Source: Variovorax sp. HW608
GTDB taxonomy: Bacteria > Pseudomonadota > Gammaproteobacteria > Burkholderiales > Burkholderiaceae_C
Assembly (NCBI RefSeq): GCF_900090195.1
Contig: NZ_LT607803.1
Coordinates: forward strand, 5,916,229 to 5,980,228
Length of the DNA stretch: 64,000 bases
Direction: 5' to 3'
Of the stretch, positions 13,108 through 32,263 are shown piece by piece. Position numbers and translations under genes: made by a program. Under the pieces are notes generated by a model. It was not told the DNA's origin. It made no database searches and saw only the letters and a list, made by a program, of their open reading frames with translations. Position 1 is the stretch's first letter; each line of letters starts with the position of its first letter.

Positions 13108-13968
13108 TTGGAAGCACGGCAGGATCAGCTGCAATCGTGGATCGGACGCAGCGCAAGAGTCGAAGACACCGTCAATCCCACCCCGGTAGTCGCACTGACC
13201 GCGACCCTGGACCATCCGGCGACGTCGGTCGAATCGGGCAAGCCACTTCCACCTCTGTGGCACTGGCTTTACTTCCTGCCCATGCACCAGCAAAGCGAAA
13301 TCGGAGCCGACGGGCACGCCAAACGCGGCGGCTTTCTTCCGCCGGTTCCGCTGCCCCGGCGCATGTGGGCCGGCGGTCAGTTCGAATTTCGCAGACCCAT
13401 CCGCGTCGGCGACCGTGTCACCAGAACCTCGACCATCGACGACGTCACGACCAAGGAAGGCCGCACCGGCAAGCTCGTGTTCGTGAAGGTGCGCCATGAG
13501 GTGCGGTGCAACGAGGCCAGCGAGCCGGCGCTCGTCGAGTTCCATGACATCGTGTACCGCGAAGCCCAAGGGCCGAACGATGTGGTGCCAGCGCCGCAAG
13601 CTGCACCGGCCGAGGCCGCCTGGCGCCGCCAGATCGTGCCCGACGACGTGCTGCTGTTCCGCTACTCGGCACTGACCTTCAATGGCCACCGCATCCACTA
13701 CGACCGCCAGTACGTGACGCAGGTCGAAGGCTATCCCGGCCTGATCGTGCATGGTCCGCTGATCGCGACGCTGCTGATGGACCTGCTGCGCCGCCAGATG
13801 CCCGAAGCAGATGTGGCGAGCTTTCGCTTCAAGGCCGTCCGGCCCACGTTCGACCTGAATGCATTCCATGTCAGCGGCCGCCCGCAGGCGGACGGCAAGA
13901 CCATCCACCTCTGGGCCTCCGACCACGAGGGCTGGCTGACGATGGATGCCACCGCAGTGCTGCGCTGA
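13108..13968 (+). CDS. MaoC/FAS1-like dehydratase; itaconyl-CoA or mesaconyl-C4-CoA hydratase candidate
   Basis: A 286-residue double-hotdog protein: an N-terminal FAS1-like dehydratase domain (WHWLYFLP, RRMWAGGQFEFRRPIRVGDRV) and a C-terminal hydratase-2 half with the catalytic patch LFRYSALTFNGHRIHYDRQY. This is the architecture of itaconyl-CoA hydratase and mesaconyl-C4-CoA hydratase, which make citramalyl-CoA. The start is TTG 13108 with AAAGGAGAC at a proper distance. The CoA-transferase and CitE-type lyase genes follow on the same strand, giving the three-enzyme order known from itaconate degradation (Ich, Ict, Ccl). Substrate assignment rests on that context. Confidence 0.85.
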   Translation: MEARQDQLQSWIGRSARVEDTVNPTPVVALTATLDHPATSVESGKPLPPLWHWLYFLPMHQQSEIGADGHAKRGGFLPPVPLPRRMWAGGQFEFRRPIRVGDRVTRTSTIDDVTTKEGRTGKLVFVKVRHEVRCNEASEPALVEFHDIVYREAQGPNDVVPAPQAAPAEAAWRRQIVPDDVLLFRYSALTFNGHRIHYDRQYVTQVEGYPGLIVHGPLIATLLMDLLRRQMPEADVASFRFKAVRPTFDLNAFHVSGRPQADGKTIHLWASDHEGWLTMDATAVLR

Positions 13969-13998: not shown

Positions 13999-15189
13999 AT
14001 GCAGCCACTCAAGGGCATCACCGTTGTCACACTGGAGCACGCGATTGCCGCGCCCTTCGCCACTCGCCAGTTGGCCGACCTCGGGGCCCGCGTCATCAAG
14101 ATCGAGCGCCCCGGCTCGGGTGATTTTGCGCGCGGCTACGACGAACGCGTTCGCGGCCTGGCATCGCACTTCGTGTGGACCAACCGCTCCAAGGAAAGCC
14201 TCACGCTCGATGTGAAGCATCCCGAGGCCGCGCGGGTGCTCGAGCGGCTGGTCCTGGAGAAGGCCGATGTCGTCGTGCAGAACCTCGCACCAGGTGCCGC
14301 AGCGCGGCTCGGCCTGGGCTACGCCAGACTTTCCGGCGCGAAGCCGGGCTTGATCGTCTGCGACATTTCCGGCTACGGGGATGACCCACACAACCCCGGG
14401 CCCTACCGCGACAAGAAGGCCTATGACCTGCTGATCCAGAGCGAGGCCGGCTTTGTCTCCGTGACCGGTACGCCCGAAGAGCCTTGCAAGGCAGGCCCCT
14501 CCATCGCAGACATTGCAGCTGGCATGTACGCGTACAGCAACATCCTGGCGGCACTGCTGCAGCGTGGGCAGACGGGCAAGGGGCAACGCATCGACATCTC
14601 GATGCTGGAGTCGCTGGCCGAATGGACCAGCTATCCGCTCTACTATGCCTTCGAAGGCGCCGAGCCGCCGCCACGCACCGGCGCCAGCCACGCGACGATC
14701 TATCCTTACGGTCCCTTCCCGGCCGGCGACGGCACCACCGTGATGCTGGGCCTGCAGAACGAGCGCGAATGGGTCAGCTTTTGCGACAAGGTGCTGCAGC
14801 AACCCGATCTCGCGAAGGATCCGCGGTTCACCGCCAACTTCAAGCGCGTGGCGGAGCGGTCTGCATTGCGGCAGATCATCGTGGAAGCGTTCAGGCCCCT
14901 GACCGGCAAGCAAGTGGTCGAGCGCCTGGAGCTCGCGCAGATCGCGAATGCGCAGGTCAACACCATGAAGGAAGTCTGGGCGCATCCGCAGCTTGAAGCG
15001 CGCGGGCGTTGGACCCAGGTGGGGACGTCGATGGGCCCGGTGCCCGCCCTGCTGCCGCCCGGCAGCTGGGACACAGGCCCCCGGATGGACCCGGTGCCTG
15101 CACTCGGCGAACACACGGATGCGATCCTGGCCGAGCTCGGCTACAGCCCCAGCGAAATCGCCGGGCTGCACGCGGCCAACGCTGTCTGA
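13999..15189 (+). CDS. CaiB/BaiF family III CoA-transferase; itaconate/mesaconate CoA-transferase candidate
   Basis: A 396-residue family III CoA-transferase with the typical start GITVVTLEHAIAAPFATRQLADLGARVIKIE, the SKESLTLDVKHPEA block, and the conserved catalytic Asp in AYDLLIQSEAG (D143). These enzymes move CoA between acids, usually from succinyl-CoA. It lies 30 bp after the hydratase and 10 bp before the lyase gene, so it would activate the acid that the hydratase and lyase then consume. Itaconate or mesaconate fits best; other C5 dicarboxylates are possible. Confidence 0.9.
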   Translation: MQPLKGITVVTLEHAIAAPFATRQLADLGARVIKIERPGSGDFARGYDERVRGLASHFVWTNRSKESLTLDVKHPEAARVLERLVLEKADVVVQNLAPGAAARLGLGYARLSGAKPGLIVCDISGYGDDPHNPGPYRDKKAYDLLIQSEAGFVSVTGTPEEPCKAGPSIADIAAGMYAYSNILAALLQRGQTGKGQRIDISMLESLAEWTSYPLYYAFEGAEPPPRTGASHATIYPYGPFPAGDGTTVMLGLQNEREWVSFCDKVLQQPDLAKDPRFTANFKRVAERSALRQIIVEAFRPLTGKQVVERLELAQIANAQVNTMKEVWAHPQLEARGRWTQVGTSMGPVPALLPPGSWDTGPRMDPVPALGEHTDAILAELGYSPSEIAGLHAANAV

Positions 15190-15199
15190 GGTCACCGTC

Positions 15200-16030
15200 A
15201 TGTCAGCCGAATTACTGCCTCCTGCCCGGACCTACCTCTTCGTGCCCGGAACACGTCCGGAACGCTTTGGCAAGGCGCTGGCCAGCGGTGCGGACAAGGT
15301 CGTTGTCGACCTTGAAGATGCCGTTGCCGCCGATGACAAGACCACGGCACGCGGCATGGTGGCGGGTTGGTTGAAGCGTGCGGCGCCCGAAGACCGATCC
15401 CGCGTCGTGGTGCGTATCAACGACGCCACTTCGTCCTGGTTTGCCGCCGACCTTGCGGCGTTGGGCGACGCGCATGGGATCAGCGTGCTTTTGCCCAAGG
15501 CCGAATCGCCCGCGCAGATTGCCGAGACCCAGGCCGCATTGCCGGCCGCAGACATCCTCGCACTCATCGAAAGCGCGCGCGGGGTCTCGGAAGTGAACCG
15601 CATCGCAGCCGCGGGCGTGCAGCGCCTGGTCTTCGGCACGCTGGATTTCGCGCTCGACCTCGACATGGACATCTCGACGGACAGCTCGGGCCTTGCCTAT
15701 GCCGGCAGCCGCATCGCGATCGCTTCGCGCCTGGCGGGCCTTCCGGCACCGGTCGCAGGCGTCACGCCGCAACTCGACGACCAGGAACGCCTGCTGGCGG
15801 ATCTTGCCGGTGCGCGGCGGCTGGGCTTCGGCGCCAAGCTGTGCATTCACCCACGCCAGGTACAGCCGATTCATGCCGCGCTGCGACCGAGCGCGGACGC
15901 GCTGGATTGGGCCCGGCGCGTCCTGGATGCCGATGCGGCATCACCAGGCGCCGCCCGGCTCGATGGCCGCATGGTCGACCGCCCGGTCGTACTGCAGGCA
16001 CAGCGCACGCTGGCGCTGGCCCGTGCCTGA
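15200..16030 (+). CDS. HpcH/HpaI-CitE family lyase; citramalyl-CoA lyase candidate
   Basis: A 276-residue TIM-barrel lyase of the CitE type. Visible motifs are YLFVPGTRPERFGKAL, the metal-site segment VVVDLEDAV, LALIESARGV, LVFGTLDFALDLD and LCIHPRQV. In this gene set the expected reaction is cleavage of (S)-citramalyl-CoA to acetyl-CoA and pyruvate. Start ATG 15200 is 10 bp after the CoA-transferase stop. The order hydratase, CoA-transferase, lyase matches the Pseudomonas/Yersinia itaconate genes. Malyl-CoA or a related CoA ester remains an alternative substrate. Confidence 0.9.
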   Translation: MSAELLPPARTYLFVPGTRPERFGKALASGADKVVVDLEDAVAADDKTTARGMVAGWLKRAAPEDRSRVVVRINDATSSWFAADLAALGDAHGISVLLPKAESPAQIAETQAALPAADILALIESARGVSEVNRIAAAGVQRLVFGTLDFALDLDMDISTDSSGLAYAGSRIAIASRLAGLPAPVAGVTPQLDDQERLLADLAGARRLGFGAKLCIHPRQVQPIHAALRPSADALDWARRVLDADAASPGAARLDGRMVDRPVVLQAQRTLALARA

Positions 16031-16082: not shown

Positions 16083-17429
16083 ATGGCCTCCACCATCATC
16101 GACTCGCGCATCTTCGGCGACATGTTCAGCGACGCGCGCATGCGCGAAGTCTGGTCCGACGAGAACCGCACCGCCAAATACCTGGACATCGAGCGCGCCC
16201 TCGCCAAGGTGCAGGGCGAACTCGGCATCATCCCCAAGGAAGCGGCGGACGAGGTCGTGCGCAACTGCAACCTGTCGCAGATCGACTGGGCCAAGCTGAA
16301 GGCCAAGACCGAACAGATCGGCTATCCCATCATCGCCGTCGTCAACCAGATCAATGCGAACTGCCGCGACAAGCTCGGCGAGTACTGCCACTGGGGCGCC
16401 ACGACGCAGGACATCACCGACACGGCCGCGGTGCTGCAGATGCGCGAAGGTCTTGCATTGGTGGAGCAGGATCTGGACGAGATCGGCGATGCACTCGCCT
16501 CCCTCGCAAGGAAATACCGCGACACACCCGTCATCGGGCGCTCCAACCTGCAGCAGGCCACGCCGATCACCTTCGGCTACAAGATGGCGAGCATCCTGGC
16601 CGGCATCGATCGTCACCGCGACCGCCTGCAGCAACTCAAGCCCCGCGTCCTGATGGGCGAGTTCGGCGGTGCGTCGGGCACCTTGTCTTCGCTCGAAAAG
16701 GGTGCCATGGAAACCCAGGCAGGTCTGATGAAGGAGTTGGGACTCGCCCAGCCGCTCATCTCGTGGCACACGGTACGGGACACCATCGCCGAAGTCGGCG
16801 CCTTCCTCGGACTGGTCGGCGGCTCGCTCGGCAAGATCGCGATGGACGTCAAGCTGATGATGCAGACCGAGGTGGCCGAGGTGTTCGAGCCCTTCGCGCC
16901 GGGTCGCGGCTCATCCTCGACCATGCCGCAAAAGCGCAATCCCATCTCCTGCCTCTACATCCACGCCAACATCTCGGTTGCACGCCAGCATGCGGCCGCG
17001 CTGATGGATGCGATGGTGGCCGACCACGAGCGCTCGACCGGGCCGTGGGAAATCGAGTGGGTGTCGCTCCCGGAGATCTTCTGCCTGATGTCGGGCGCGT
17101 TGAAGCAGACCAAGTTCATTCTCAAGGGCCTGGAAGTCGACGCCACCCGTATGCGCGCCAACATCGACATCACCAACGGACTCGTGATGTCCGAGGCCGT
17201 GATGATGGGTCTGGGTCCATACATCGGCCGCGAGTATGCGCACGACCTTGTCTATGACCTGTGCCGCCAGGCGCTGGCCGACAACCAGCCGTTGATCGAG
17301 ATCCTGGTCGCACACCCGGAGGTCAACAAGCATGTCACGCGGGCCCAGCTCGAAGCCATGTGCGACCCGGCCAACAACATCGGCCAAGCCGGCGTGATGG
17401 TCGATCGCGTCCTCGCAGCACGCAGCTAA
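16083..17429 (+). CDS. Fumarase/aspartase-superfamily lyase (PurB/PcaB-like)
   Basis: A 448-residue protein of the class II fumarase/aspartase superfamily. The family signature is GSSSTMPQKRNP near residue 280, and other conserved blocks are WGATTQDITDTA, IGRSNLQQATPITFG and the ERSTGPWEIEW segment. Members include adenylosuccinate lyase, 3-carboxymuconate cycloisomerase and EDDS-type C-N lyases, which release fumarate or lactonise. It follows the citramalyl-CoA lyase by 52 bp and precedes the DctA gene, so it probably supplies or removes a dicarboxylate in the same pathway. The neighbourhood argues against a purine role. The precise reaction is open. Confidence 0.88.
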   Translation: MASTIIDSRIFGDMFSDARMREVWSDENRTAKYLDIERALAKVQGELGIIPKEAADEVVRNCNLSQIDWAKLKAKTEQIGYPIIAVVNQINANCRDKLGEYCHWGATTQDITDTAAVLQMREGLALVEQDLDEIGDALASLARKYRDTPVIGRSNLQQATPITFGYKMASILAGIDRHRDRLQQLKPRVLMGEFGGASGTLSSLEKGAMETQAGLMKELGLAQPLISWHTVRDTIAEVGAFLGLVGGSLGKIAMDVKLMMQTEVAEVFEPFAPGRGSSSTMPQKRNPISCLYIHANISVARQHAAALMDAMVADHERSTGPWEIEWVSLPEIFCLMSGALKQTKFILKGLEVDATRMRANIDITNGLVMSEAVMMGLGPYIGREYAHDLVYDLCRQALADNQPLIEILVAHPEVNKHVTRAQLEAMCDPANNIGQAGVMVDRVLAARS

Positions 17430-17508
17430 GCCCGACATCGACCTTTCACAAATGGATCGAGCCGGCGAAGACCGGTGTGTATCTGTGCCACCGAAGCCTG
17501 GAGACAAC

Positions 17509-18843
17509 GTGAACATCCGAAAGCTGTTGAAGCTGCTCTACATACAGGTCCTGATCGGCCTGATCCTCGGCATCACCGTGGGCCACTACTGGCCCGAGTT
17601 CGGCGCCGCGCTCAAGCCACTCGGCGACGGCTTCGTCAAGCTGGTCAAGATGATGATCTCGCCGGTGGTGTTCTGCACCATCGTGAGCGGCATCACTTCG
17701 CTGGGCGACTCCAAGGAGATCGGCAAGACCCTGCTCAAGGCGATGGGACTCTTCTACGCCCTGACGATTCTGGCGCTCATCACCGGCCTGGTCGCCGTCC
17801 TGCTCCTCCAGCCGGGTGCCGGCATGCACATCGACCCGAAGAACCTCGACGCCTCCGTGGCGACCCGCTTCGCGAATCAGGTGCATATCCACGGCTTCAC
17901 CGACTTCGTCATGCACATCATTCCGAACGCGTTCTTCGGCGCCTTCGCCGAGGGCGAAGTGTTGCCGGTGCTGCTGCTCGCGGTGATCTGCGGATTCGGC
18001 CTGACGAAGATCGGCGCGAACGCCAAGCCGGTGCTCGAGGGTATCGACGGCTTCTCGCACATGCTGTTCGCGGCCTTCGGAATCATCATGCGGCTGGCGC
18101 CGATCGGTGCGTTCGGTGCCATGGCATTCACGGTCGGACGCTACGGCATCAAGTCGATCGGATCGCTGGGAATGCTGATCGGGACCTTCTACGTGACCTG
18201 CATCTTCTTCGTCGCGGTGGTGCTGGGTGTGCTGTCGCGTCTGCACGGCTTCAAGCTGTGGCAGCTGATGCGCTACATCAAGGAGGAGTTGCTGGTCGTT
18301 CTAGGCACCTCCTCCAGCGAGCCCGTGCTTCCCCGTCTCCTGCTCAAGCTCGAAAGGCTGGGTTGCAAGAAGGGCGTGGTCGGGCTCGTGCTGCCGACTG
18401 GCTATTCGTTCAATCTCGACGGCACGGCCATCTACCTGACCTTGGCATCGATGTTCATCGCCCAGGCCTGCGACGTCCATCTGTCGTGGCTGCAGATCGG
18501 CTCGATGCTGGGGATCATGCTGCTGACATCCAAGGGCGCGGCGGGGGTGACAGGCAGTGGTTTCGTCGCATTGGTCGCTACGCTCACGGTGATGCCTGAT
18601 CTTCCGGTTGCGGGCGTGGCCCTGATCGTCGGCATCGATCGCTTCATGTCGGAGGCGCGCGCGCTTACCAGCACCATCAGCAATGCAGTGGCCTGCATCG
18701 TGGTTTCCATCTGGGAGAACGCCTGCGACCGAGACGTGCTGCGTCGTGAACTGGCGGCGAACTATGCCAACACCGAACACGACCTCGAAGAGGGCTCCGG
18801 GAACTTGCAGTTGCCGCTCGGCCACACCGGCACGGCACGCTGA
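17509..18843 (+). CDS. dctA: DctA-type C4-dicarboxylate:cation symporter
   Basis: A 444-residue member of the DAACS family with about eight hydrophobic segments plus re-entrant loops. Diagnostic parts are the serine-rich loop LGTSSSEPVLPRLL, the LPTGYSFNLDGTAIYLTLA segment and SKGAAGVTGSGF, all as in DctA. It imports succinate, fumarate or malate with cations across the inner membrane. GTG 17509 is chosen (GGAGAC upstream, first residues NIRKLLKLLYIQVLIG); an earlier ATG at 17452 adds a non-homologous leader. Placed after the itaconate-type genes, it may import that C5 dicarboxylate. Its end converges with the LysR gene. Confidence 0.93.
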   Translation: MNIRKLLKLLYIQVLIGLILGITVGHYWPEFGAALKPLGDGFVKLVKMMISPVVFCTIVSGITSLGDSKEIGKTLLKAMGLFYALTILALITGLVAVLLLQPGAGMHIDPKNLDASVATRFANQVHIHGFTDFVMHIIPNAFFGAFAEGEVLPVLLLAVICGFGLTKIGANAKPVLEGIDGFSHMLFAAFGIIMRLAPIGAFGAMAFTVGRYGIKSIGSLGMLIGTFYVTCIFFVAVVLGVLSRLHGFKLWQLMRYIKEELLVVLGTSSSEPVLPRLLLKLERLGCKKGVVGLVLPTGYSFNLDGTAIYLTLASMFIAQACDVHLSWLQIGSMLGIMLLTSKGAAGVTGSGFVALVATLTVMPDLPVAGVALIVGIDRFMSEARALTSTISNAVACIVVSIWENACDRDVLRRELAANYANTEHDLEEGSGNLQLPLGHTGTAR

Positions 18844-18882: not shown

Positions 18883-19812
18883 TCAACTCGCAGCGCGGCG
18901 GCCTGGGGGCTTGCCGCGCTTTGCTTTCATCTCCGAAAAGAAGGCATAGAGCTGCTGCGCAGCCGGGGACAAGGTCCGGCCCTTGCGCCGGATCAGGCCG
19001 ATCTTGCGCGTGATCACCGGGTCGTAGAGTGGCACGCTCACGAGAAGCGGATGGTCAGAGTCCGGCATGGCGCTCGAAGGCACCGCAGCCACGCCGAGAC
19101 CCGCCTCGACGAGGCCGAGCATCGTCGTGACGTGCTGGGTTTCGTAGATGCTCTGCGGGCGGCCCGGAACGCCTGAAAGAGCCTGGTCCAGCAACAGCCG
19201 ATTGCCCGATGCCTTGCTGACCGAGATGTAGTCGTACTGCCCGAGCTCGGTCCAGTTCACGCGACGCTTCTGTGCGAGCGGATGGTCGCGCCTGCAAGCG
19301 GCGACGAAACGCTCCTCCAGCAAGGGCTTGAATTCGATGTCCGGTTCCTTGGCACCGACGAAATTGAGGCCGAAGTCAGCCTCCCCGCGCGACACGGCCG
19401 AGAGCACCTCGTTGGCGCTGGCGTCGAACACCTTGACCCGGATCTTCGGGTAGCGCTCGTGGTAGCGCGAGATCACCTGCGAGAGGAAGTAGTAGACGGT
19501 CGAAGGCACGCAGGCAATCGTCACCTCGCCCATGCGCGTGGCCGCCACGCCGCGGATACCCAACAACGTGTGATCGAGTTCGTCCAGAAGCTGCTGGACC
19601 TTGCGATCGAAATCTCGTCCCACGGAGGTCAAGCTCACGCGACGCGTGGTCCGGTCGAGGAGACGAACCCCCAGAGCTTCCTCCAACTTCTCGATGCGGC
19701 GGCTGAACGCGGGCTGCGAGACATGCAGCGCCTCGGCTGCCTTGCGAAAGTTCTTCAGTTCGGCAACCGCCCGGAAGGCCTGCAGATCGTTGAGATTGAA
19801 GTTGATGGCCAT
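18883..19812 (-). CDS. LysR-family transcriptional regulator
   Basis: A 309-residue LysR protein: N-terminal helix-turn-helix (FRKAAEALHVSQPAFSRRIEKLEEALGVRLLDRTTRRV at about 22-60) and a periplasmic-binding-protein-like effector domain with ITIACVPSTVYYFLSQ-type first strand and GLGVAAVPSSAMP near residue 240. It is transcribed away from the Bug gene at 19976, with a likely operator at 19828-19859, and converges on dctA. It is the candidate regulator of the Bug/PrpF genes and possibly of the itaconate-type genes, by analogy with the LysR regulators of known itaconate loci. Confidence 0.93.
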   Translation of the reverse strand: MAINFNLNDLQAFRAVAELKNFRKAAEALHVSQPAFSRRIEKLEEALGVRLLDRTTRRVSLTSVGRDFDRKVQQLLDELDHTLLGIRGVAATRMGEVTIACVPSTVYYFLSQVISRYHERYPKIRVKVFDASANEVLSAVSRGEADFGLNFVGAKEPDIEFKPLLEERFVAACRRDHPLAQKRRVNWTELGQYDYISVSKASGNRLLLDQALSGVPGRPQSIYETQHVTTMLGLVEAGLGVAAVPSSAMPDSDHPLLVSVPLYDPVITRKIGLIRRKGRTLSPAAQQLYAFFSEMKAKRGKPPGRRAAS

Positions 19813-19975: not shown

Positions 19976-20953
19976 TTGAACACTCAGAAACCTCGCCTCA
20001 TTGCCGCAGTCGCGCTGGCGGCATCGCTGGCTTGCTCAAGCGGAAGTGCGGCAGCCGCCTTTCCCGAGAAGACGATCACCCTCGTGGTCCCGACGGCCGC
20101 AGGAGGCGCCAACGATGCCATGGCACGCATCGTTGGACAGGGTATGTCGGCCATCCTGAAGCAGCCCGTCATCGTCGAGAACAAGGCAGGCGCCAACGGC
20201 GCGATCGCCAGCGAATACGTGATGCGTGCCGCGCCGGACGGCTACACGATCATGCTGGGCTACATCGCAACGCACGCGATGAACCCGGCGCTGCAGAAGC
20301 TTCGCTATGACCCGGTGAAGGACTTCGAGCCTGTCGGCATGGTCGGATCATCGGCAACGCTGATGGTCCTCAATCCGGCCGTCAAGGCCAGCACCGCAAA
20401 GGAAGTCGTAGCGATGCTCAAGGCGGCCCCGGACAAGACCAGCTATGCCTCGGCCGGCAACGGCACGGCGCCGCATTTCGCCGCCGAGTTGTTCAAGCTT
20501 TCAACGGGCACCAGCATGCTCCATGTGCCCTACAAGGGTTCCGCGCCTGCGATCACGGACACCATCGCTGGCCAGACGCAGGTGATGTTCCCGAGCGTGT
20601 TCACAGCCATGCCGTACGTGAAGGGCGGCAAGCTGAAGGCCGTCGGTGTTGCGGGGTCCAAACGTTCGGCGCTGATGCCCGATGTACCGACGTTGCAGGA
20701 ACAGGGAATCGCCGACGTCGACGTCTCCCAGTGGTATGGCATCTTCGCGCCGGCGAAGACACCGAAGCCCGTGATCGAGCAGCTCAACAAGGTGCTCAAC
20801 GAGGTGTTGGCCGACAAGACCGTGATCAAGCGACTCGAAGACCATGGTGCGGAGGTCTCACCCATGACGACCGACCAGATGCGCGCCTATGTTGCGCAAG
20901 AGCAGATCAAGTGGAAGAAAGTCGTTCAGGCGGCCAAGATCACTGCCGAATGA
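19976..20953 (+). CDS. Bug-family tripartite tricarboxylate substrate-binding protein
   Basis: A 325-residue periplasmic binding protein. The start is TTG 19976 with CCGGAG nine bases upstream. The signal peptide (LIAAVALAASLACSSGSAAAA) is followed by FPEKTITLVVPTAAGGAND, then IVENKAGANGAIASEYV and FPDVPTL-like MPDVPTLQEQGI. It probably binds a di- or tricarboxylate. No TctAB carrier is nearby. It ends 1 bp before the PrpF-Bug fusion gene and is the closest visible paralogue of the fusion's C-terminal half (shared ANGAIASEYV and GTHAMNPALQ-type blocks), so the two Bug domains arose by duplication. Confidence 0.93.
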   Translation: MNTQKPRLIAAVALAASLACSSGSAAAAFPEKTITLVVPTAAGGANDAMARIVGQGMSAILKQPVIVENKAGANGAIASEYVMRAAPDGYTIMLGYIATHAMNPALQKLRYDPVKDFEPVGMVGSSATLMVLNPAVKASTAKEVVAMLKAAPDKTSYASAGNGTAPHFAAELFKLSTGTSMLHVPYKGSAPAITDTIAGQTQVMFPSVFTAMPYVKGGKLKAVGVAGSKRSALMPDVPTLQEQGIADVDVSQWYGIFAPAKTPKPVIEQLNKVLNEVLADKTVIKRLEDHGAEVSPMTTDQMRAYVAQEQIKWKKVVQAAKITAE

Positions 20954-20954
20954 T

Positions 20955-22979
20955 ATGAACAAGTCCATCCCCTGCGTGCTGATGCGCGCCGGCACTTCGC
21001 GGGGACCATTCTTTCTGCGTGAGTGGTTGCCGGAAGGCGACGAGGCGCGTGACCAGGCGTTCATCGGGGCGATCGGCGCGTCCGACCCGCTGCAGCTCGA
21101 TGGCGTGGGCGGCGGCAGTACGCTGAACAGCAAGGTGGCCATCGTGTCGCGCTCGTCCCGGCCTGGATGCGACATCGACTACCTCTTTGCGCAGGTGGGC
21201 GTCGGCCACCAGTCGGTCGACACGCGGCCGAATTGCGGGAACATGCTCTCCGGCGTTGCGCCTTTTGCGATCGAGCAGGGGCTGGTGTCAGCGACCGACG
21301 GCACAACCAATGTTCGCGTCTACAACGTCAACACGGGGTCGCGCATCGACGTCACCGTGCGCACGCCCGGCGGCCGCGTGACCTACGAGGGCGACGCGCG
21401 CATCGATGGTGTTGCCGGCACGGCTGCACCCATCCTGCTGAACTTCCTTGACGCATGGGGAGCGGTCACGGGGAAAGTCTTTCCGACAGGAAAGCGCATC
21501 GACACCATCGACGGCATTCAGGTGACCTGCATCGACGCCGCCATGCCGCTGATGATCGTCCGGGCCGGCGACCTCGGCGTCACAGGGCGCGAGAAGCCGG
21601 CTGCGCTCGATGCGAACACCGCACTTCTTGAGCGGCTCGAGAGGCTTCGCCTGGAGGCCGGACGCATGATGGGCCTGGGGGACGTGTCCAACAGCGTCAT
21701 TCCCAAGCCCGTGCTGGTCAGCGCGGGCGAGTCGGATGACAACATCACGTCGCGCTACTTCACACCTCGAAAATGCCACGCGTCACATGCGGTGACGGGA
21801 GCCATCGGCGTCGCAAGTGCCTTTGCCTTGCCGGGAACGGTCGCAAGCGGGCAGGCACGCGATCCGGGGCGGCACAGGTTGGTCGTGCTGCATCCCGCTG
21901 GCCGGATAGACATCGAAGTGGAGCTGAATGGTTGCGAAGATGGCGCAACAGTCGAACGCGCTGCGCTTGTTCGCACGGCGCGAAAGATCATGCAAGGCGA
22001 ACTGCATCTGCCCGAATACGTCTTCTCGCGCCCCGAGCCGACGGGTGCGGAACTCTCGACCTTTCCGAACAAGGCGTTCACCATCATCGTGCCGACGCGC
22101 GCCGGTGGCGGCAACGACACAATGGCTCGAATCATCGCCGCCAAGCTGGCCCCACTGCTTGGCCAGGAGGTGGTGGTCGACAACCGCGCTGGGGCGAACG
22201 GCGCGATCGCCAGCGAGTACGTCGCACGTTCCGCACCGGACGGGCACACCTTGATGTTCGGCTACGTCGGCACGCACGCGATGAATCCGGCACTTCAAAG
22301 GCTGGGGTACGACCCGGTCGAGGATTTCGCTCCGATCGGCCTCGTGGGATCGTCCCCAACCTTGATGGTCACGCATCCGGAGAAGGGCGCGCCCGATCTG
22401 GACACGCTCATCGCGCGGCTGATGGACTCGCCTCGCCGCTTCAGCTACGCGTCCGCCGGTGATGGGACCCCTCCGCACTTCGCGGCTGAACTGTTCCAGC
22501 TCAGCAGCGGGACCTCGATGTCGAGTTCGACCTTCGAAGGGGCCGCGCCGGCCATTGCCGACACCGTCGCCGGCCGCTCGCAGGTCATGTTTCCGAGCCT
22601 GTTCACGGCATACCCGTTCATTCGCGCTGGACAACTACGCGCATTGGGCGTGGCGGGACCGAAACGGCTTGAGGCCTTACCCGAGGTAGCGACGCTCGCG
22701 GAACAGGGAGTCTCGGGGTTGGATGTCGAGCAATGGTATGGGCTGTTCGCGCCGGCTGGCACGCCCCCCGCTTCCATTGATCGCCTCAATCGGGCGCTCA
22801 ATCAAGTACTGTGCGATCCCGAAGTTGTCGCGCGTTTTCAGAGCCACGGCGCTCGAGCCGAGCCAGGGACAACAGAGGCGCTCGCGCAAAGGTTGCAGAG
22901 AGATCTGGAGCGCTGGCGCAAAGTCGTGGCTCGGGCCCGGATCGCGCCGAAAGAGCAAAGCCAACTCGCGCTTTATTGA
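20955..22979 (+). CDS. Fusion protein: PrpF/GalD-type isomerase joined to a Bug binding-protein domain
   Basis: One uninterrupted 674-residue frame. Residues 1 to ~360 are a PrpF-family isomerase of the type that includes 4-oxalomesaconate tautomerase (GalD) and methylaconitate isomerase: CVLMRAGTSRGPFF at the start, K60 in LNSKVAIV and C94 in PNCGNMLSG at the positions proposed as catalytic in PrpF. Residues ~369 to 674 form a complete mature Bug domain starting FPNKAFTIIVPTRAGGGND, with no signal peptide before it. A cytoplasmic enzyme is thus joined to a normally periplasmic receptor fold. Start ATG 20955 is 1 bp after the preceding Bug stop. The fusion could be a cytosolic ligand-sensing or channelling device, or an accident of deletion between two genes; neither half shows stops. 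Confidence 0.88.
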   Translation: MNKSIPCVLMRAGTSRGPFFLREWLPEGDEARDQAFIGAIGASDPLQLDGVGGGSTLNSKVAIVSRSSRPGCDIDYLFAQVGVGHQSVDTRPNCGNMLSGVAPFAIEQGLVSATDGTTNVRVYNVNTGSRIDVTVRTPGGRVTYEGDARIDGVAGTAAPILLNFLDAWGAVTGKVFPTGKRIDTIDGIQVTCIDAAMPLMIVRAGDLGVTGREKPAALDANTALLERLERLRLEAGRMMGLGDVSNSVIPKPVLVSAGESDDNITSRYFTPRKCHASHAVTGAIGVASAFALPGTVASGQARDPGRHRLVVLHPAGRIDIEVELNGCEDGATVERAALVRTARKIMQGELHLPEYVFSRPEPTGAELSTFPNKAFTIIVPTRAGGGNDTMARIIAAKLAPLLGQEVVVDNRAGANGAIASEYVARSAPDGHTLMFGYVGTHAMNPALQRLGYDPVEDFAPIGLVGSSPTLMVTHPEKGAPDLDTLIARLMDSPRRFSYASAGDGTPPHFAAELFQLSSGTSMSSSTFEGAAPAIADTVAGRSQVMFPSLFTAYPFIRAGQLRALGVAGPKRLEALPEVATLAEQGVSGLDVEQWYGLFAPAGTPPASIDRLNRALNQVLCDPEVVARFQSHGARAEPGTTEALAQRLQRDLERWRKVVARARIAPKEQSQLALY

Positions 22980-23912: not shown

Positions 23913-24770
23913 ATGGGCACCGCAGGACCACAACCCACACACCGCACCGTCTCGCTCGGCTCGCGGCAGATCCACCTTGCCGAATTCGGCGCCGGACCCG
24001 CCTTGTTGATGCTGCACGGCGGCGGACCCGGCGCCTCGGGCGTCTCCAACTACTCGCGCAACGTCGAGGTGCTGGCGCGGCAGTTCCGCGTGCTGGTGCC
24101 CGACATGCCCGGCTATGGACGCTCGAGCAAGGACATCGACGCCGCCGACCCGTTCGGCGACATCGCGTCGGCCATGCGGGGGCTGCTCGATGCGCTGGAG
24201 ATCCCACGCGCCCATGTGGTGGGCAATTCGCTCGGCGGTGCCGTGGCGCTGCGCCTGGCGCTGGATCGACCCGATCGGGTGGGCCGCCTGGTGCTCATGG
24301 GGCCCGGCGGCATCGGCATCGCCCAAGGCAAGCCGACCCCCGGCCTTCTGCGCCTCCTGACGTACTACGCCGGAGAGGGGCCGACCTTCGAGAAGCTGCG
24401 TTCCTTCATCACGGAGGACCTGGTCTACGACGCCAGCGGCGTCAGCGAGGCGATGCTGCGCGAGCGCTTCGAGTCGAGCATCGACCCTGCCGTGGTGGCC
24501 AACCCGCCGCTGCGCGTGCCCCCCAATCCGGAGGCCTTCAGGCGCATGGACTTCCTGCTCGATCCGCGCCTTGCGGACTTCGACCACCCGACGCTGATCC
24601 TGTGGGGCTGCGAGGACCGGGTCAACCCGAGCGCCGCAGCCCTGGCGCTGCAGGCCAGGCTGCCCCGTGCCGACGTGTTTCTGTTCAGCCGCACGGGACA
24701 CTGGGTCCAGTGGGAACGTGCAGCCGAATTCAACGCGACGGTGGCTGCCTTCCTGGGCAACGAGGCCTGA
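23913..24770 (+). CDS. Meta-cleavage product hydrolase (alpha/beta hydrolase)
   Basis: A 285-residue alpha/beta hydrolase resembling MhpC/BphD. The oxyanion region is LLMLHGGGPGASGVSNYSRN, the nucleophile elbow GNSLGG holds Ser near residue 110, the acid is Asp in LILWGCEDRVNP, and the His is in RTGHWVQWE. These C-C hydrolases split the vinylogous 1,5-diketone made by extradiol cleavage. It is the first gene of the operon that continues through the dioxygenase, monooxygenase, hydratase, dehydrogenase and aldolase. AAGGAG lies just upstream. Confidence 0.92.
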   Translation: MGTAGPQPTHRTVSLGSRQIHLAEFGAGPALLMLHGGGPGASGVSNYSRNVEVLARQFRVLVPDMPGYGRSSKDIDAADPFGDIASAMRGLLDALEIPRAHVVGNSLGGAVALRLALDRPDRVGRLVLMGPGGIGIAQGKPTPGLLRLLTYYAGEGPTFEKLRSFITEDLVYDASGVSEAMLRERFESSIDPAVVANPPLRVPPNPEAFRRMDFLLDPRLADFDHPTLILWGCEDRVNPSAAALALQARLPRADVFLFSRTGHWVQWERAAEFNATVAAFLGNEA

Positions 24771-24786
24771 CCGGGGAGTGATTCGC

Positions 24787-25797
24787 ATGAACACCGTCAC
24801 AGCAATCCCTGCCGGGGACACCCTCTTCGACCGCATCAGCCTCGGCTACGTGGTGGTGGAGTCGCGCAAGCTGGCCGAATGGGAGCGCTTTGCGCGCGAG
24901 GGCCTGGGCGTGCATGCCGAAGCCACACGCAGTGGCCTGGCGCTGCGCATCGACGAACACGAACGCCGCATCGTCGTCCGGGAAGGCCCGGCCGAGGATG
25001 TGGTGGCGATCGGCTGGCAACTGCACGACGAGCCGGCGCTGGCGCTGGCGCTGCGGCGACTGGAGGCGGCAGGGCTGCAGGTGCAAAGCGTCGGCGGCGC
25101 CGAGGCGGCGGCACGCGGCGTCGAAAGCCTGTGGGCCTTCGCAGGCCCCAAGCGCGTGCGCTACGAGCTCTTCTTCAAGCCCTTGCTGAGCACGCGAGCC
25201 CTCGAGATGCGCTGCAGCGGCTTCGTCACCGGCCACATGGGCCTGGGTCACTTCGCCATGTCCACGCGCGAGCCGGAAGCCGCATTGAACTTCTTCCAGC
25301 GATTTTTCGACGCGCGCCTGTCCGACACCATCGAGGACCGGCTGAACGGCGTCACGCTGGACCTGAGTTTCCTGCGCCTGAACGGCCGGCACCATTCGGT
25401 GGCCATCGCGGCCACGAGGGGCCAGCGCATGAATCCGCTGCGCACGTCGATCCATCACCTCAACCTGCAGGCACGCAGCCTCGACGACGTGACCGAGGGT
25501 TACCGGCGCCTGCGCGCCATGGGCTGTCGCATTGCGAACGCGATCGGCCAGCACCCGAACGACCGTGAAGTCTCGTTCTATGTCGCCACCCCATCCGGCT
25601 TCGAGATCGAGATCGGCTGGAATCCGATCGTCGTCACGCATGAGGCGGAAGCAAGCTGGAAGCCCGGCCATTACCAGGGCATCAGCCTCTGGGGTCACTT
25701 CCCCGAGGGACTGACGATGGGCTCGCGGCTCGGCCAGATGGGCCGAGGCCTCGCCTCGCTCACCCGCAAGGAACACACCGTTGGAGTTACAGCATGA
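24787..25797 (+). CDS. Extradiol (type I, VOC) dioxygenase, 2,3-dihydroxybiphenyl dioxygenase-like
   Basis: A 336-residue two-domain extradiol dioxygenase. The C-terminal domain carries the 2-His-1-Glu iron site: His in HMGLGHFAM near 155, His in SIHHLNLQ near 220, and Glu in FEIEIGW near 275, with the GRHHSVAI and EVSFYVATPSGFEIE blocks of the BphC family. It cleaves a catechol-type ring next to the diol. ATG 24787 follows the hydrolase by 16 bp; the monooxygenase start overlaps its end (ATGA). The substrate is probably a catechol with a bulky or acidic side chain. Confidence 0.92.
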   Translation: MNTVTAIPAGDTLFDRISLGYVVVESRKLAEWERFAREGLGVHAEATRSGLALRIDEHERRIVVREGPAEDVVAIGWQLHDEPALALALRRLEAAGLQVQSVGGAEAAARGVESLWAFAGPKRVRYELFFKPLLSTRALEMRCSGFVTGHMGLGHFAMSTREPEAALNFFQRFFDARLSDTIEDRLNGVTLDLSFLRLNGRHHSVAIAATRGQRMNPLRTSIHHLNLQARSLDDVTEGYRRLRAMGCRIANAIGQHPNDREVSFYVATPSGFEIEIGWNPIVVTHEAEASWKPGHYQGISLWGHFPEGLTMGSRLGQMGRGLASLTRKEHTVGVTA

Positions 25798-27554
25798 ACG
25801 CCCCTGACTTCGCCTGCGACGTCGCGATCGTCGGACTCGGCCCCACCGGCCTCACGCTGGCCCACGCGCTGGGACAGCGCGGCCACCAGGTTCTCGTGCT
25901 GGAGCGCGAACCCCGGTTCTATGGCAACGCACGCGCCGTCTATACCGACGGGGAATGCATGCGCATCTTCCAGTCGATCGGCATGGCGGATCGACTGGCG
26001 GCCGACATGCTCGAAGACGCGCCGGTGCAGATGGTGCTGCCCGACGGTTCCGTGCTGTTCCAGATCAAGACGACCAAGCGCGAGCACGGTTGGCCCGCGA
26101 ACAACTTCTTCTACCAGCCCTTGCTGGAGACGGCGCTGTCGGAGGGCCTGGCCAGGCATCCGAACGTGACCGTGCTGCGCGGCCGTGAGGTCACGCGCTT
26201 CGAGCAGGATGCCGACGGCGTGGACCTGTTCCATGTCGCTTGCGGGGGCAGCGACTATGGCAAGGCGGCTCCGCAGCTCGGCGTGAAGCCTGCTCCCGCG
26301 CCGCGGGAAGCCCGGGTGCGCGCCCGCTGGATGGTGGGCGCCGATGGCGGCCGCAGCGGCGTGCGCGCACAACTCGGTATCGAGATGAGCGGGAAGAACT
26401 TTCCCAACCCGTGGCTGGTGGTCGACATCAAGGCCAAGGACGCCAGCGACGGCTTGCGCCACGTGCCGTACTTCAACTTCATCTGCGACCCGGCCTGCCC
26501 GACCGTCTGCTGCGTGCAGCCGAACGGCCACCACCGCTTCGAATTCATGCTCATGCCCGGCCAGACGCGCGAGCAGATGACGCACCCCGAGACGGTGCGT
26601 CACTACCTGTCGCGGTACATCGATGTCGACAAGTTCGAGATCCTGCGCACGCTGGTCTACACCTTCAACGCGCTGATGGCAGAGAAGTGGCGCGACGGGC
26701 GCGTGCTGCTGGCCGGCGACGCGGCGCACATGACGCCGCAGTTCATCGGCCAGGGCATGAACGCCGGCGTGCGCGATGCGTACAACCTGGCCTGGAAGCT
26801 CGACGCCGTGCTGCGCGGGCAGGCCGGCGAGGCATTCCTGGACAGCTACCAGAGCGAGCGCCAGCCGCATGCCGCCGCGATGACGCGCGAGGGCATCCGC
26901 ATGAAGGACTTCGTCTCGATGACCCACCCCGTGGGCACCCGGGTGCGCAACCTGCTCACTCGCCTCATGGTGCGGCTGCCCGGGATCGGGCCGTTCGTGC
27001 GCCGGGGCGAGTTCATTCCCAAGCCCGTCTACGAGGCCGGGTGCTACATGGGGCTTGCGCGTCGCCGTTGGCGCGGTGCCGAAGGCACGCTGATGCCGCA
27101 GCCCAGCGTGCGCGGACCCGATGGCCGGCGCCATCTGCTCGACGAGTTGATCGGCACGGGCTTCGTCCTCGTCAGCGCGGGCGTGGACCCACGACGAACC
27201 CTGGACGCCGAGGCGTTGTCGTTCTGGCAATCGCTCGGCGCACGGTTCGTGGCGGTGTACCCGTTCGGCGGGCGGCCCAATGGCGCAGGCATCGACCATG
27301 CCGCACCGGCCGGGCTCATCGAGTGCGAGGATCCCGAGGGCGACTTCCAGTCCTGGTGGCGCAGAAGCGGGGGCCGAGCCGGCCACGTGGCCATCGTGCG
27401 CCCGGACAAGTTCGTCTTCGCGCTCGTCGAAGGGGAGGCCCTGGTGGGGGCCACGCGCGAGCTTCGCCGCCAGATGAGGGTGGACGAGGCGGTGCCTGTG
27501 ACGCATCGGGCGCTGCCGGCCGTCGAGGCGGACCATTGGCGGGAGGCCGCATGA
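25794..27554 (+). CDS. FAD-dependent ring monooxygenase, MhpA-like
   Basis: A 586-residue flavoprotein hydroxylase with the FAD motif VAIVGLGPTGLTLAHALG, the DG motif WMVGADGGRSGVR and the GD motif VLLAGDAAHMTPQFIGQGMNAGVRDA, then a C-terminal thioredoxin-like domain. Its length and arrangement match 3-(3-hydroxyphenyl)propionate hydroxylase (MhpA). It would convert a monophenol to the catechol used by the dioxygenase just upstream. It overlaps both neighbours by 4 bp, so translation is tightly coupled. An insertion near residue 145-180 (FHVACGGSDYGKAAPQL) separates it from the shorter paralogue at 7944. Confidence 0.92.
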   Translation: MNAPDFACDVAIVGLGPTGLTLAHALGQRGHQVLVLEREPRFYGNARAVYTDGECMRIFQSIGMADRLAADMLEDAPVQMVLPDGSVLFQIKTTKREHGWPANNFFYQPLLETALSEGLARHPNVTVLRGREVTRFEQDADGVDLFHVACGGSDYGKAAPQLGVKPAPAPREARVRARWMVGADGGRSGVRAQLGIEMSGKNFPNPWLVVDIKAKDASDGLRHVPYFNFICDPACPTVCCVQPNGHHRFEFMLMPGQTREQMTHPETVRHYLSRYIDVDKFEILRTLVYTFNALMAEKWRDGRVLLAGDAAHMTPQFIGQGMNAGVRDAYNLAWKLDAVLRGQAGEAFLDSYQSERQPHAAAMTREGIRMKDFVSMTHPVGTRVRNLLTRLMVRLPGIGPFVRRGEFIPKPVYEAGCYMGLARRRWRGAEGTLMPQPSVRGPDGRRHLLDELIGTGFVLVSAGVDPRRTLDAEALSFWQSLGARFVAVYPFGGRPNGAGIDHAAPAGLIECEDPEGDFQSWWRRSGGRAGHVAIVRPDKFVFALVEGEALVGATRELRRQMRVDEAVPVTHRALPAVEADHWREAA

Positions 27555-30462: not shown

Positions 30463-30526
30463 GGATGTAACATGTAGTCACTAAAATAGGTTGACTATTG
30501 GAGATGCATCGCCTAAAGTGATCAGC

Positions 30527-32263
30527 ATGGCAGCCCGCACCGGTACCGCTCACGTCGTCACTACGACTCGCATCTACAAGGACCAGGTCTATCGCACCCA
30601 CCTGCTGCGTCGCAGCTACCGCGAGGACGGCAAGGTCAAGAACGAGACGTTAGGCAATCTCTCGCACCTGCCCGATGAACTCATCGAGATCATCCGGCGC
30701 TCGCTGCAGGGCGAGACCTTCGTGCCGGTGGCCTCGGCGTTCGAGATCACGCGCTCGCGCCCCCACGGCCATGTGCAGGCCGTTGGCGCCGCGATGGCGG
30801 CCCTGGAGATGGCCTCGCTGCTCTCTTCCAAGCCCTGCCGCGAGCGCGACCTGGTGCTCGCGATGATCGCCGCGCGCATCGCAGCCCCCCACACCAAGCT
30901 CGCGACCACGCGCTGGTGGCACACCACCACGCTGGCCGAGGACTTCGGTGTCGCCGACGCCGACGAGGACGACCTGTACGCGGCGATGGACTGGCTGCTC
31001 GCGCGCCAGGATCGCATCCAGAAGAAGCTCGCCGCGCTCCACCTGGGCGCTGGCGCCCTGGTGCTGTACGACCTGTCGTCGAGTTACTTCGAAGGCAACT
31101 GCTGCCCTCTGGCCAGGCTCGGCTACAGCCGAGACGGCAGGAAGGGCATGCTGCAGGTCAACTACGGGCTGCTCACCGATGCGCGGGGCTGCCCGGTGGC
31201 GGTGTCGGTGCACGAGGGCAACGTCGCCGACAGCCAGACCTTGCTGCCCGAGGTCAAGCGGCTGCGCGAGGCCTTCGGCGTCCAGCAGTTGGTGATGGTG
31301 GGGGACCGCGGCATGATCTCCAGCAAGGCCATCCAGGAGATGCGCGAGTGCGAGGGCGTGGGCTGGATCAGTGCGCTGAAGAGCGCCTCGATCCGCGCGC
31401 TGGTCGAGCAGGGACACCTGCAGCTGGGCTTGTTCGACGAGCGCAACCTGCTCGAACTGAGCTCGCCGGACTTCCCCGGCGAGCGCCTGGTGGCGTGCCG
31501 CAATCCGGAGCTTGCCAAGCTGCGCACGCACAAGCGCGAGGAACTGCTCGCAGCCACTGAGGCCAGCCTCGCGAAGATCAAGGCCCGGGTGGATGCGGGC
31601 AAGCTCGCCGGCAAGGACGAGATCGGCCTGCGTGTGGGCAAGCTCGTCAACCAGTACAAGGTCGCCAAGCACTTCGAATTGGTGATCGGCGAGAACGCCT
31701 TCACCTTCGCGCGCAGGACAGACGCCGTCGCCGCCGAGGCGGCGCTGGACGGCATCTACATTATCCGCACGTCGGTGAGCGCGGCGCAGATGGACTCGGC
31801 TGAGTGCGTGCGCAACTACAAGTCCCTGGCCAACGTCGAGCGTGCGTTCCGCTCGCTCAAGACCATCGATCTGAAGGTGCGCCCCATCCATCACCACACG
31901 GCCGATCGGGTGCGCGCGCACATCTTCTTGTGCATGCTCGCCTACTACGTCGAGTGGCACATGCGCGAGGCCTGGCGCGCGTTGATGTTCGCCGACACCG
32001 ACCAGCAGGCCAAGGCCGCGCGTGACCCCGTGGCACCGGCCACGCGCTCCAAGGCCGCTCAGGCGAAGGCGTCGCACCACGCACTGGAGGACGGCACGCC
32101 CGCGCACAGCTTCTCCACCCTGATGGCCGAGCTCGCCACCCTCGTGCGCAATACCTGCCGCGCGCCCAACGCAGCCCCCGAGGCGCCCACCTTCGAGCTG
32201 CTCACCAACGCGCAGCCACTTCACCTGCGCGCCCTCGCGCTCGTGCAAAACATCAAGCCGTAG
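30527..32263 (+). CDS. IS1634-type (IS4 superfamily) transposase
   Basis: A 578-residue DDE transposase from ATG 30527 (a TTG at 30491 is an earlier in-frame option). The N-terminus has the VYRTHLLRRSYREDGKVKNETLGNLS motif characteristic of IS1634-family proteins. Catalytic segments include VLYDLSSSYFEG near 180, MVGDRGMISSKA near 260, and the late VERAFRSLKTIDLKVRPIHH with the YREK-like Glu/Arg region. The frame is intact. No matching terminal inverted repeats could be found. The right flank is only 38 bp before the end of the next gene, so the element may be truncated on that side. A CTCAAGCA/TGCTTGAG dyad lies at 32284-32301. Confidence 0.88.
   Translation: MAARTGTAHVVTTTRIYKDQVYRTHLLRRSYREDGKVKNETLGNLSHLPDELIEIIRRSLQGETFVPVASAFEITRSRPHGHVQAVGAAMAALEMASLLSSKPCRERDLVLAMIAARIAAPHTKLATTRWWHTTTLAEDFGVADADEDDLYAAMDWLLARQDRIQKKLAALHLGAGALVLYDLSSSYFEGNCCPLARLGYSRDGRKGMLQVNYGLLTDARGCPVAVSVHEGNVADSQTLLPEVKRLREAFGVQQLVMVGDRGMISSKAIQEMRECEGVGWISALKSASIRALVEQGHLQLGLFDERNLLELSSPDFPGERLVACRNPELAKLRTHKREELLAATEASLAKIKARVDAGKLAGKDEIGLRVGKLVNQYKVAKHFELVIGENAFTFARRTDAVAAEAALDGIYIIRTSVSAAQMDSAECVRNYKSLANVERAFRSLKTIDLKVRPIHHHTADRVRAHIFLCMLAYYVEWHMREAWRALMFADTDQQAKAARDPVAPATRSKAAQAKASHHALEDGTPAHSFSTLMAELATLVRNTCRAPNAAPEAPTFELLTNAQPLHLRALALVQNIKP

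Follow-up and report, generated by a model that had tools for sequence, protein, structure and literature searches.

A signal-less Bug domain fused in frame to a PrpF-family isomerase in Variovorax sp. HW608: recurrence, likely substrate and possible origin

How does a Bug (TctC) domain, of a kind normally exported by means of a signal peptide, come to share one reading frame with a PrpF-family isomerase, and what could it do there without a signal peptide? The question is raised by a stretch of 64,000 nucleotides from Variovorax sp. HW608 (contig NZ_LT607803.1, positions 5,916,229 to 5,980,228 of the forward strand), hereafter the window, in which the gene at 20955-22979 encodes such a protein. 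Our analysis gives an even chance to the reading that the product is a cytosolic aconitate-type isomerase with a flexibly tethered, tricarboxylate-binding Bug module. Both domains are known, and their arrangement is unusual; it is visible in the databases, and we found no printed description of it. The gene, its parts and the adjoining Bug gene are:

20955..22979, + strand: fusion gene, PrpF/GalD-type isomerase and signal-less Bug (TctC) domain, 674 amino acids (translation, Pfam)
20955..22025, + strand: isomerase half, residues 1-357 (PF04303 at 4-353)
21132-21134, + strand: K60 of the isomerase half
21234-21236, + strand: C94 of the isomerase half
21774-21776, + strand: C274 of the isomerase half
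22026..22061, + strand: linker, residues 358-369, with no Met and no Shine-Dalgarno site
22062..22943, + strand: Bug (TctC) domain, residues 370-663 (PF03401 at 391-659; template modelling (TM) score 0.92-0.93 to TctC structures)
19976..20953, + strand: separate Bug with signal peptide, 56% identical to the fused Bug; TTG start with GGAG 8 nucleotides upstream

The single frame of 674 codons on the forward strand has its terminal codon as its only stop, with none at the junction, and both Pfam domains are recognized in it, which confirms the one-frame PrpF-Bug fusion of the original prediction, made from the DNA letters alone. Pfam PrpF (PF04303) matches residues 4-353 with 370.5 bits against a cut-off of 27, over profile positions 3-371 of 371, and Pfam TctC (PF03401) matches residues 391-659 with 181.9 bits against a cut-off of 27. 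The N-terminal half therefore spans the full-length profile and carries the catalytic lysine and cysteine that define the PrpF superfamily. K60 and C94, already pointed out in the prediction, are kept in all 55 rows of the isomerase alignment, and C274 in 54, the remaining row having a gap; the equivalence of K60 and C94 to K66 and C100 of LigU follows from the offset of the matched ranges and the mutant names rather than from a residue-level alignment. The Bug half starts at F370 (FPNKAFTIIVPTRAGG), which matches the mature start of the upstream Bug (FPEKTITLVVPTAAGG), and the join does fall, as had been proposed, near the point of signal-peptide cleavage. The normal Bug paralogue expected 1 bp upstream is indeed present: its start, chosen by reading, is the TTG at 19976, its signal peptide is LNTQKPRLIAAVALAASLACSSGSAAAA, and it ends at 20953, one base before the fusion ATG at 20955. 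Fused and upstream Bugs are 56% identical over 294 residues, and the next best Bug match genome-wide shows 41% identity. Reading of the translation, without a predictor, revealed no hydrophobic segment before the isomerase or in the linker, and the fused Bug likewise lacks the signal peptide by which Bug/TctC proteins are exported, in agreement with the prediction; the fusion protein would thus reside in the cytosol.

The original prediction regarded this architecture as unknown for a family, yet it is not rare. We searched proteins by scoring only the Bug half, with the whole protein determining candidate lengths, and obtained 1305 matches among 8000 scored candidates. All 120 matches listed, the window's own included, bear PrpF and TctC, that is, at least 119 other listed proteins have both domains, and four of the 120 are pieces shorter than 480 residues. 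Variovorax, Ramlibacter, Rhodoferax, Hydrogenophaga, Ottowia and Pseudorhodoferax are among the genera of the matches listed. Such proteins carry the JGI label PrpF/tripartite-type tricarboxylate transporter receptor and the NCBI name 4-oxalomesaconate tautomerase. Neither a PrpF-TctC fusion nor a signal-less TctC domain was found described in the accessible text of the open-access PubMed Central (PMC) literature, outside which most subscription papers lie; one open-access paper names PrpF and TctC together, in the available text as separate genes (PMC5373536).

We then read the locus in related genomes. With the isomerase half as query (E <= 1e-90), 59 of 299 genomes of the family gave a match, and 55 of these, the window's own included, were read, the four left out being at 46-48% identity. 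The readings fall into four architectures, of which classes 3 and 4 were assigned by linker length, with signal peptides judged by reading. Class 1 (8 of 55) is a lone isomerase, 45-50% identical to that of the window. Class 2 (10 of 55) has an isomerase with its own stop codon followed by a Bug gene, which lies out of frame in eight cases and in frame behind the stop in two. Class 3 (24 of 55) is one open frame of isomerase, linker, signal peptide and Bug, with an internal ribosome site and an ATG or GTG, as in L023, L028 and L074 (internal start region at about 9800-9890 in L074). Class 4 (13 of 55) is the signal-less form of the window. The original prediction was therefore incomplete, since it lacked the related one-frame form with an internal signal peptide and second start. 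A survey of the whole order gave matches in 36 of 300 genomes. Four reached 77% identity or more, namely the window's own and three from outside the family; the two of these three that were read are both signal-less fusions by reading.

A second set comprised the best 80 of 126 loci by match to the window protein and, by keeping the best matches, favours full fusions. Both domains are present in all 80, with Bug halves of 280-309 residues throughout, and linkers assign 16 loci to class 3 and 64 to class 4, including L186 and L188 (VPTVAGG and VPTFAGG), which were placed in class 4 by hand reading. The class 3 loci come from Rhizobacter, Piscinibacter, Sphaerotilus, Ideonella, Rubrivivax, Roseateles and Paucibacter among others; class 4 includes Variovorax, Ramlibacter, Caenimonas, Hydrogenophaga, Polaromonas, Limnohabitans, Cupriavidus and Verticiella, as well as Pelomonas sp. 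KK5, Massilia niastensis, Noviherbaspirillum suwonense and the metagenome-assembled genome REEB379. The check proposed with the original prediction, a search for the same domain order in other genomes, thus succeeded, with the signal-less frame in 13 of the 299 family genomes. This recurrence, the 64 of 80 loci of the second set, the two domains in all 120 matches listed and the purifying selection described below refute an assembly or deletion artefact, for which we found no supporting evidence. Because many related bacteria keep the fusion, it is real and probably useful.

The class 3 linkers, which have ten different lengths, distinguish the two fused forms. The pattern GGAG-N4-9-RTG occurs in 24 of 24 class 3 linkers and in 0 of 13 class 4 linkers, against a background of 8 occurrences in 39,933 nucleotides of isomerase coding sequence, and a looser pattern matches all 16 class 3 linkers of the second set. 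Bacterial genes in which an internal start gives two products exist, and the class 3 relatives look alike in kind, with the difference that their putative internal product would be exported; a literature search on such bacterial isoforms listed no pertinent paper. A class 3 gene may accordingly be one gene for both a fusion and an exported receptor. When a class 3 protein served as query, most of the 120 matches listed were single proteins of 676-718 residues and the rest shorter pieces, four of which have the TctC domain alone; the single entries reflect gene calling and do not prove a fusion product. The 24 class 3 frames, with their longer linkers, internal starts and, by reading, signal-peptide-like stretches, would also suit a membrane-spanning protein with the isomerase inside and the Bug outside, of which the window form would be a derived remnant. 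We consider this unlikely, as an internal start with a good ribosome site could alone make the exported Bug and the proposal does not address the role of the domain after the signal was lost.

Where did the signal-less form come from? In an isomerase tree of 55 rows, class 4 consisted of a clade of 12 (100/99) and of G116, which lay within a class 3 clade (98/92); the bootstrap of this tree had not settled, and a single class 4 clade was rejected for the isomerase half (approximately unbiased (AU) test, p = 1.3e-8). A tree of 66 isomerase rows from both sets needs four changes to class 4, three of them forced by starred branches, and its four class 4 groups are a clade of 25 rows, Pelomonas, Massilia with Noviherbaspirillum, and REEB379. 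The Bug-half tree of 70 rows has two changes: Massilia and Noviherbaspirillum stand apart with a class 3 row (100/97), and Pelomonas and REEB379 join the large class 4 group (92/95). Grouping the Pelomonas row with two class 3 relatives was not rejected on the Bug half (p = 0.166). The conflict between the halves may stem from recombination of the Bug half or from long branches. The isomerase trees with their several changes and the Bug-half tree with two put the number of origins of the signal-less form at two to four. Whichever half is used, class 4 falls within or next to class 3, and class 3 is therefore the likely ancestor. One class 2 locus, L039 (G258), has a Bug that groups with two class 3 rows (100/99) and an isomerase near the base of class 3, and a stop codon may have been regained once in its lineage. 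We also considered that the fused Bug stems from a duplication within the window's own Bug pair. This is not supported, as the separate Bugs found in class 4 genomes fall outside the group of classes 3 and 4; four of the ten such Bugs were in the trees, and they lay outside that group in two trees and had no resolved position in the third.

Separate Bugs were searched with the upstream Bug as query (E <= 1e-80), with scoring confined in many genomes to the 55 best first-look candidates. Ten of the 13 class 4 genomes have a separate Bug at 64% identity or more besides the fused one (the window's own being the query), and in G121, G039 and G116 the fused Bug is the sole member of the group. A second Bug at 62% identity or more was found in 0 of the 19 class 3 genomes searched (of 24), some of which gave matches at 41-45%. 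The pattern fits a job split between two genes, with three exceptions that keep the fused Bug alone. We estimated the ratio of nonsynonymous to synonymous change (dN/dS) by the Nei-Gojobori method (NG86), using for class 4 11 hand-picked, partly overlapping pairs that exclude G116; dS is above 1 in some pairs, where its values are rough. The ratios were 0.076-0.293 for the Bug and 0.047-0.141 for the isomerase in class 4, 0.053-0.400 and 0.051-0.268 in class 3 (11 pairs), and 0.046-0.352 and 0.247-0.330 in class 2 (3 pairs). The fused Bug is under purifying selection.

Which residues selection has kept was examined in an alignment of 77 class 4 Bugs with 54 sisters. The sisters are the Bugs of classes 2 and 3, of which those of class 3 may be both exported and fused, plus four separate Bugs from class 4 genomes; eight genomes occur twice in each alignment set. 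Two segments of the fused Bug bear on ligand binding:

22092..22118, + strand: first pincer loop, P380-T-R-A-G-G-G-N-D388 (motif from PMC5812351)
22530..22541, + strand: turn 526-529, TFEG in place of PYKG, probably the second pincer arm

The ligand loop of Bug domain 1 is given as P-F-x-A-G-G-x-x-D in the available text of PMC5812351, and the fused Bug has this loop with T replacing F. Eighteen positions that we looked up are invariant in all 77 class 4 Bugs (P380, T381, G384, G385, N387, D388, N410, G413, G416, Y437, T440, H441, S467, S500, G502, G504, W594 and Y595), as is G529; less strictly kept are T505 (76 of 77), H508 and P547 (74 each), F546 (73), A383 (70), T469 (69) and F509 (57). 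Across 40 other Bugs of the window's genome, seven of the invariant residues are variable: T381, N387, Y437, T440, H441, S467 and Y595. The turn behaves in the opposite way: P[YFC][KR]G is present in 54 of 54 sisters and in 0 of 77 class 4 Bugs, 33 of which carry E or D at residue 528, where the sisters have K or R. Variants are PYNG in Massilia and Noviherbaspirillum and AHKG in REEB379, none of which was among the 51 rows of the scan in which the turn was first spotted. Among the 40 other Bugs the four turn positions are P in 36, Y or F in 40, K or R in 35 and G in 37; P-Y-[KR]-G is thus a feature common in the Bugs of this genome and, as far as we have seen, not a published criterion. Three independent pairs support a comparison of signal loss with turn loss, and all agree, a number too small for significance. 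A first structural model places 526-529 between beta 7 and the following helix (with a mean predicted local distance difference test (pLDDT) score of 65 for the isomerase half), where the available text of PMC5812351 locates the second pincer arm, so that the turn probably grips the ligand.

Since the residues that differ between Bugs are kept and a turn general to them is changed, we infer the same ligand with an altered closure: the fused Bug probably binds the same tricarboxylate as its exported sisters, be it aconitate, tricarballylate or a relative. The conservation of the loop and of the presumed pocket residues points the same way. The original prediction had the fused domain sense or channel the substrate of the isomerase, and such a tie is plausible. 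Alternatively, the Bug half could be a passenger, a tolerated folded tail that keeps the isomerase soluble and binds no ligand, and the missing turn in 77 of 77 together with faster evolution relative to the isomerase would suit this. We find it doubtful, though not negligible, because the dN/dS of the fused Bug is not above the class 3 range, the 18 loop and presumed pocket residues are invariant with seven of them variable elsewhere, the length is held at 280-309 residues in 80 of 80 loci of the second set, chosen for good matches, and in three of 13 genomes the fused Bug is the only member of its Bug group.

In a second AlphaFold2 model (63 rows) both halves are mostly folded (isomerase mean pLDDT 79, predicted TM-score 0.53), and linker residues 358-371 score below 50. 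Linker length and letters vary among relatives, which favours a tether over a rigid joint. By Foldseek (target-normalised TM-scores), the isomerase half resembles YbhH (0.88) and LigU (0.84), and the Bug half 7nds (0.93), 8hka (0.92) and BugD (0.91). LigU, YbhH and GalD share the fold of the isomerase half and, by offset, its catalytic K and C; their solved chains have no Bug domain, and the class 1 relatives have other neighbours. A PrpF from Shewanella has been solved with trans-aconitate (PDB 2pw0). BugD, MatC, TphC and TBP of the Bug/TctC group share the fold of the Bug half at TM-scores of about 0.9, and their first pincer loop is kept in the window; unlike them, the window Bug has no signal peptide, is fused to an enzyme and has a changed P-Y-[KR]-G turn.

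What, then, is the substrate of the isomerase? The genes preceding the Bug pair in the window are:

13108..13968, + strand: MaoC/FAS1-dehydratase-like hydratase (PF13452 50.3 bits, cut-off 22; PF01575 24.1, below 27; start codon unsure; no NCBIfam match)
13999..15189, + strand: family III CoA-transferase, CaiB-like (PF02515 344 bits; best NCBIfam 246 bits, cut-off 750)
15200..16030, + strand: CitE-like C-C lyase (nearest NCBIfam RipC_Ccl, itaconate degradation, 154 bits, below the cut-off of 375)
16083..17429, + strand: lyase closest to the trans-aconitate decarboxylase Tad1 (PDB phmmer)
17452..18843, + strand: DctA-type dicarboxylate symporter (NCBIfam NF002461 577 bits, cut-off 513)
18883..19812, - strand: LysR-type regulator, divergent (Pfam)

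The closest solved relative of the lyase by sequence is Tad1 (9h3i, 541.9 bits, against 466 for fumarate lyase 3c8t and 379 for CMLE 1re5), and the lyase of a class 3 relative reaches 538 bits. In neighbourhood stretches of 7-18 kb per locus (the window itself being 64 kb), a Tad1-like lyase is present in 20 of 24 class 3, 7 of 13 class 4 and 0 of 8 class 1 cases. At least one of the lyase, CoA-transferase, CitE and MaoC genes occurs in 20 of 24 class 3 and 8 of 13 class 4 stretches, in 14 of 16 class 3 and 40 of 64 class 4 loci of the second set, and in none of the eight class 1 stretches. TcuA and TcuB (tricarballylate to aconitate), both passing NCBIfam cut-offs, are found in 9 of 47 loci of classes 2-4 (4 of 10 in class 2, 3 of 24 in class 3 and 2 of 13 in class 4). 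Class 1 stretches hold instead, in 8 of 8 cases each, LigK (TIGR02798, 403 bits, cut-off 304.5) and an amidohydrolase PF04909, which we take to be LigJ-like; six of the eight also have a lactonase-like gene. A LigK-like or LigJ-like gene was found in 0 of 47 stretches of classes 2-4 and 0 of 80 second-set loci, gallate dioxygenase not itself having been searched, and the lactonase-like gene was not found in the stretches of the other classes. At 19 sites the isomerases of class 1 and of classes 2-4 are fixed differently, seven of them within 266-284 around C274. With neighbours unlike those of protocatechuate breakdown and a Tad1-like lyase beside CoA-transferase, MaoC and CitE genes, the N-terminal half most likely interconverts cis- and trans-aconitate and would feed itaconate breakdown.

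Under a rival assignment the protein is a genuine 4-oxalomesaconate tautomerase that serves gallate or protocatechuate breakdown and carries a fused Bug; this draws on the NCBIfam equivalog and on the closeness of the fold to YbhH and LigU. The context speaks against it: the isomerase is not encoded among protocatechuate 4,5-cleavage genes, and LigK- and LigJ-like genes are missing from all 47 stretches and 80 loci (the rest of each genome lying outside the search), compared with both in 8 of 8 class 1. The Tad1-like lyase nearby, the 19 differing sites and the example of Adi1, which shows that GalD-like proteins can be aconitate isomerases (PMC4720413, in its available text), point the same way, and we judge this assignment quite unlikely; NF033377 possibly over-annotates the protein. 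Of the predicted 'GalD-type' isomerase, membership in the PrpF family and the passing of NF033377 stand, and the implied substrate is probably misnamed, as the neighbours suggest aconitate rather than oxalomesaconate.

Described systems offer parallels. In the available text of PMC4720413, Adi1 of Ustilago maydis is an aconitate delta-isomerase, for which a P. putida oxalomesaconate tautomerase is listed as characterised match, and Adi1 and Tad1 are likewise a PrpF-family isomerase encoded near a Tad1-like lyase. That text does not describe Adi1 (443 residues) as fused to a binding protein, and the likeness is one of description rather than of compared sequences. The fungus uses these enzymes in production, whereas the context in the window looks like bacterial breakdown. 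The aconitate isomerases TarA and TbrA belong to the PrpF superfamily according to the available text of PMC11495376, hence to that of the window isomerase, with the same reaction proposed; they are likened by family, not by sequence. There TarA, of 376 residues, works with a major facilitator superfamily (MFS) importer, unlike the window protein.

A cytosolic Bug might also report its ligand to a regulator, for instance the neighbouring LysR protein. Of 47 class 2-4 loci, 44 have a LysR gene close to the isomerase, and there is a precedent for signalling in exported BctC, which reports its ligand to a sensor kinase (PMC5812351, available text). We hold such a role very unlikely: the LysR protein has its own ligand domain (Pfam), its gene is equally present where the Bug is separate (10 of 10 in class 2), and the fusion to the isomerase is left unexplained.

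The reading of a cytosolic aconitate-type isomerase with a tethered Bug module must be weighed with several observations that count against it. The isomerase passes the 4-oxalomesaconate tautomerase equivalog cut-off of NF033377 (493.2 against 440), and none of the lyase, CoA-transferase, CitE and MaoC genes is found in 5 of 13 class 4 and 10 of 10 class 2 stretches. In the window, the CoA-transferase and CitE-like genes fall well short of the curated cut-offs for the families nearest to them, which leaves the itaconate branch no more than likely. That the invariant residues beyond 380-388 line the pocket is something we infer. The second AlphaFold2 model has pLDDT below 50 at 527-533, shows no helix there and is unsure across 527-540, and the two-domain model gives no confident interdomain contact or arrangement. 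The remodelled turn could mean weak or lost binding, and the dN ratio of Bug to isomerase, 1.2-3.7 in class 4 compared with 0.57-2.1 in class 3, could reflect partial relaxation. As for origin, a single origin of class 4 is not rejected on the Bug half (p = 0.17), and the looser ribosome-site pattern also matches 2 of the 62 class 4 linkers tested (L166 and L197), L186 and L188 lying outside the test.

In the scheme that we favour, the N-terminal half, a PrpF-family delta-isomerase, would interconvert cis- and trans-aconitate; trans-aconitate would pass to the Tad1-like decarboxylase, and the resulting itaconate would be broken down by the CoA-transferase, the hydratase and a citramalyl-CoA lyase. 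The C-terminal Bug on its flexible tether would most likely be a cytosolic module of the isomerase that binds its substrate or product; it might sense the ligand allosterically, hold substrate close at hand or feed it. As to its history, the isomerase stop codon would have been lost before a downstream Bug gene, giving one frame; this frame would have retained the internal ribosome site, start and signal peptide, and could thus yield a fusion as well as an exported Bug. Loss of the signal peptide would have followed two to four times. We offer only tentatively the resulting proposal that an exported Bug was captured through stop-codon loss in a two-start gene and then repeatedly turned inward as the cytosolic substrate sensor of an early pathway enzyme.

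The window and genome hold further features. A transposase gene (10915-12045, DDE_3 and HTH domains) seems to interrupt a Bug gene, whose pieces lie at 10340-10873 and about 12309-12707, the second being C1:5928537-5928935, and a second transposase-like gene (DDE_Tnp_1) lies at 30491-32263. The aromatic cluster at 23913-27554, with hydrolase, extradiol dioxygenase-like and FAD hydroxylase genes, resembles families of steroid, biphenyl and 3-hydroxyphenylpropionate breakdown, and only the hydroxylase passes a curated cut-off. The genome gives 147 matches to the fusion query, and with about five exceptions these cover just the Bug half; compared with 5 TctA membrane components, this is a large surplus of orphan Bugs.

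If the proposed reading is true, living relatives would display a stepwise route by which a periplasmic receptor became a regulatory or substrate-holding domain of an enzyme. The fused and exported forms would amount to a natural experiment that separates the Bug residues needed for ligand binding from those needed for periplasmic life. The widespread database name 4-oxalomesaconate tautomerase would be put in question for these proteins, and a bacterial route of breakdown from aconitate to itaconate would be indicated.

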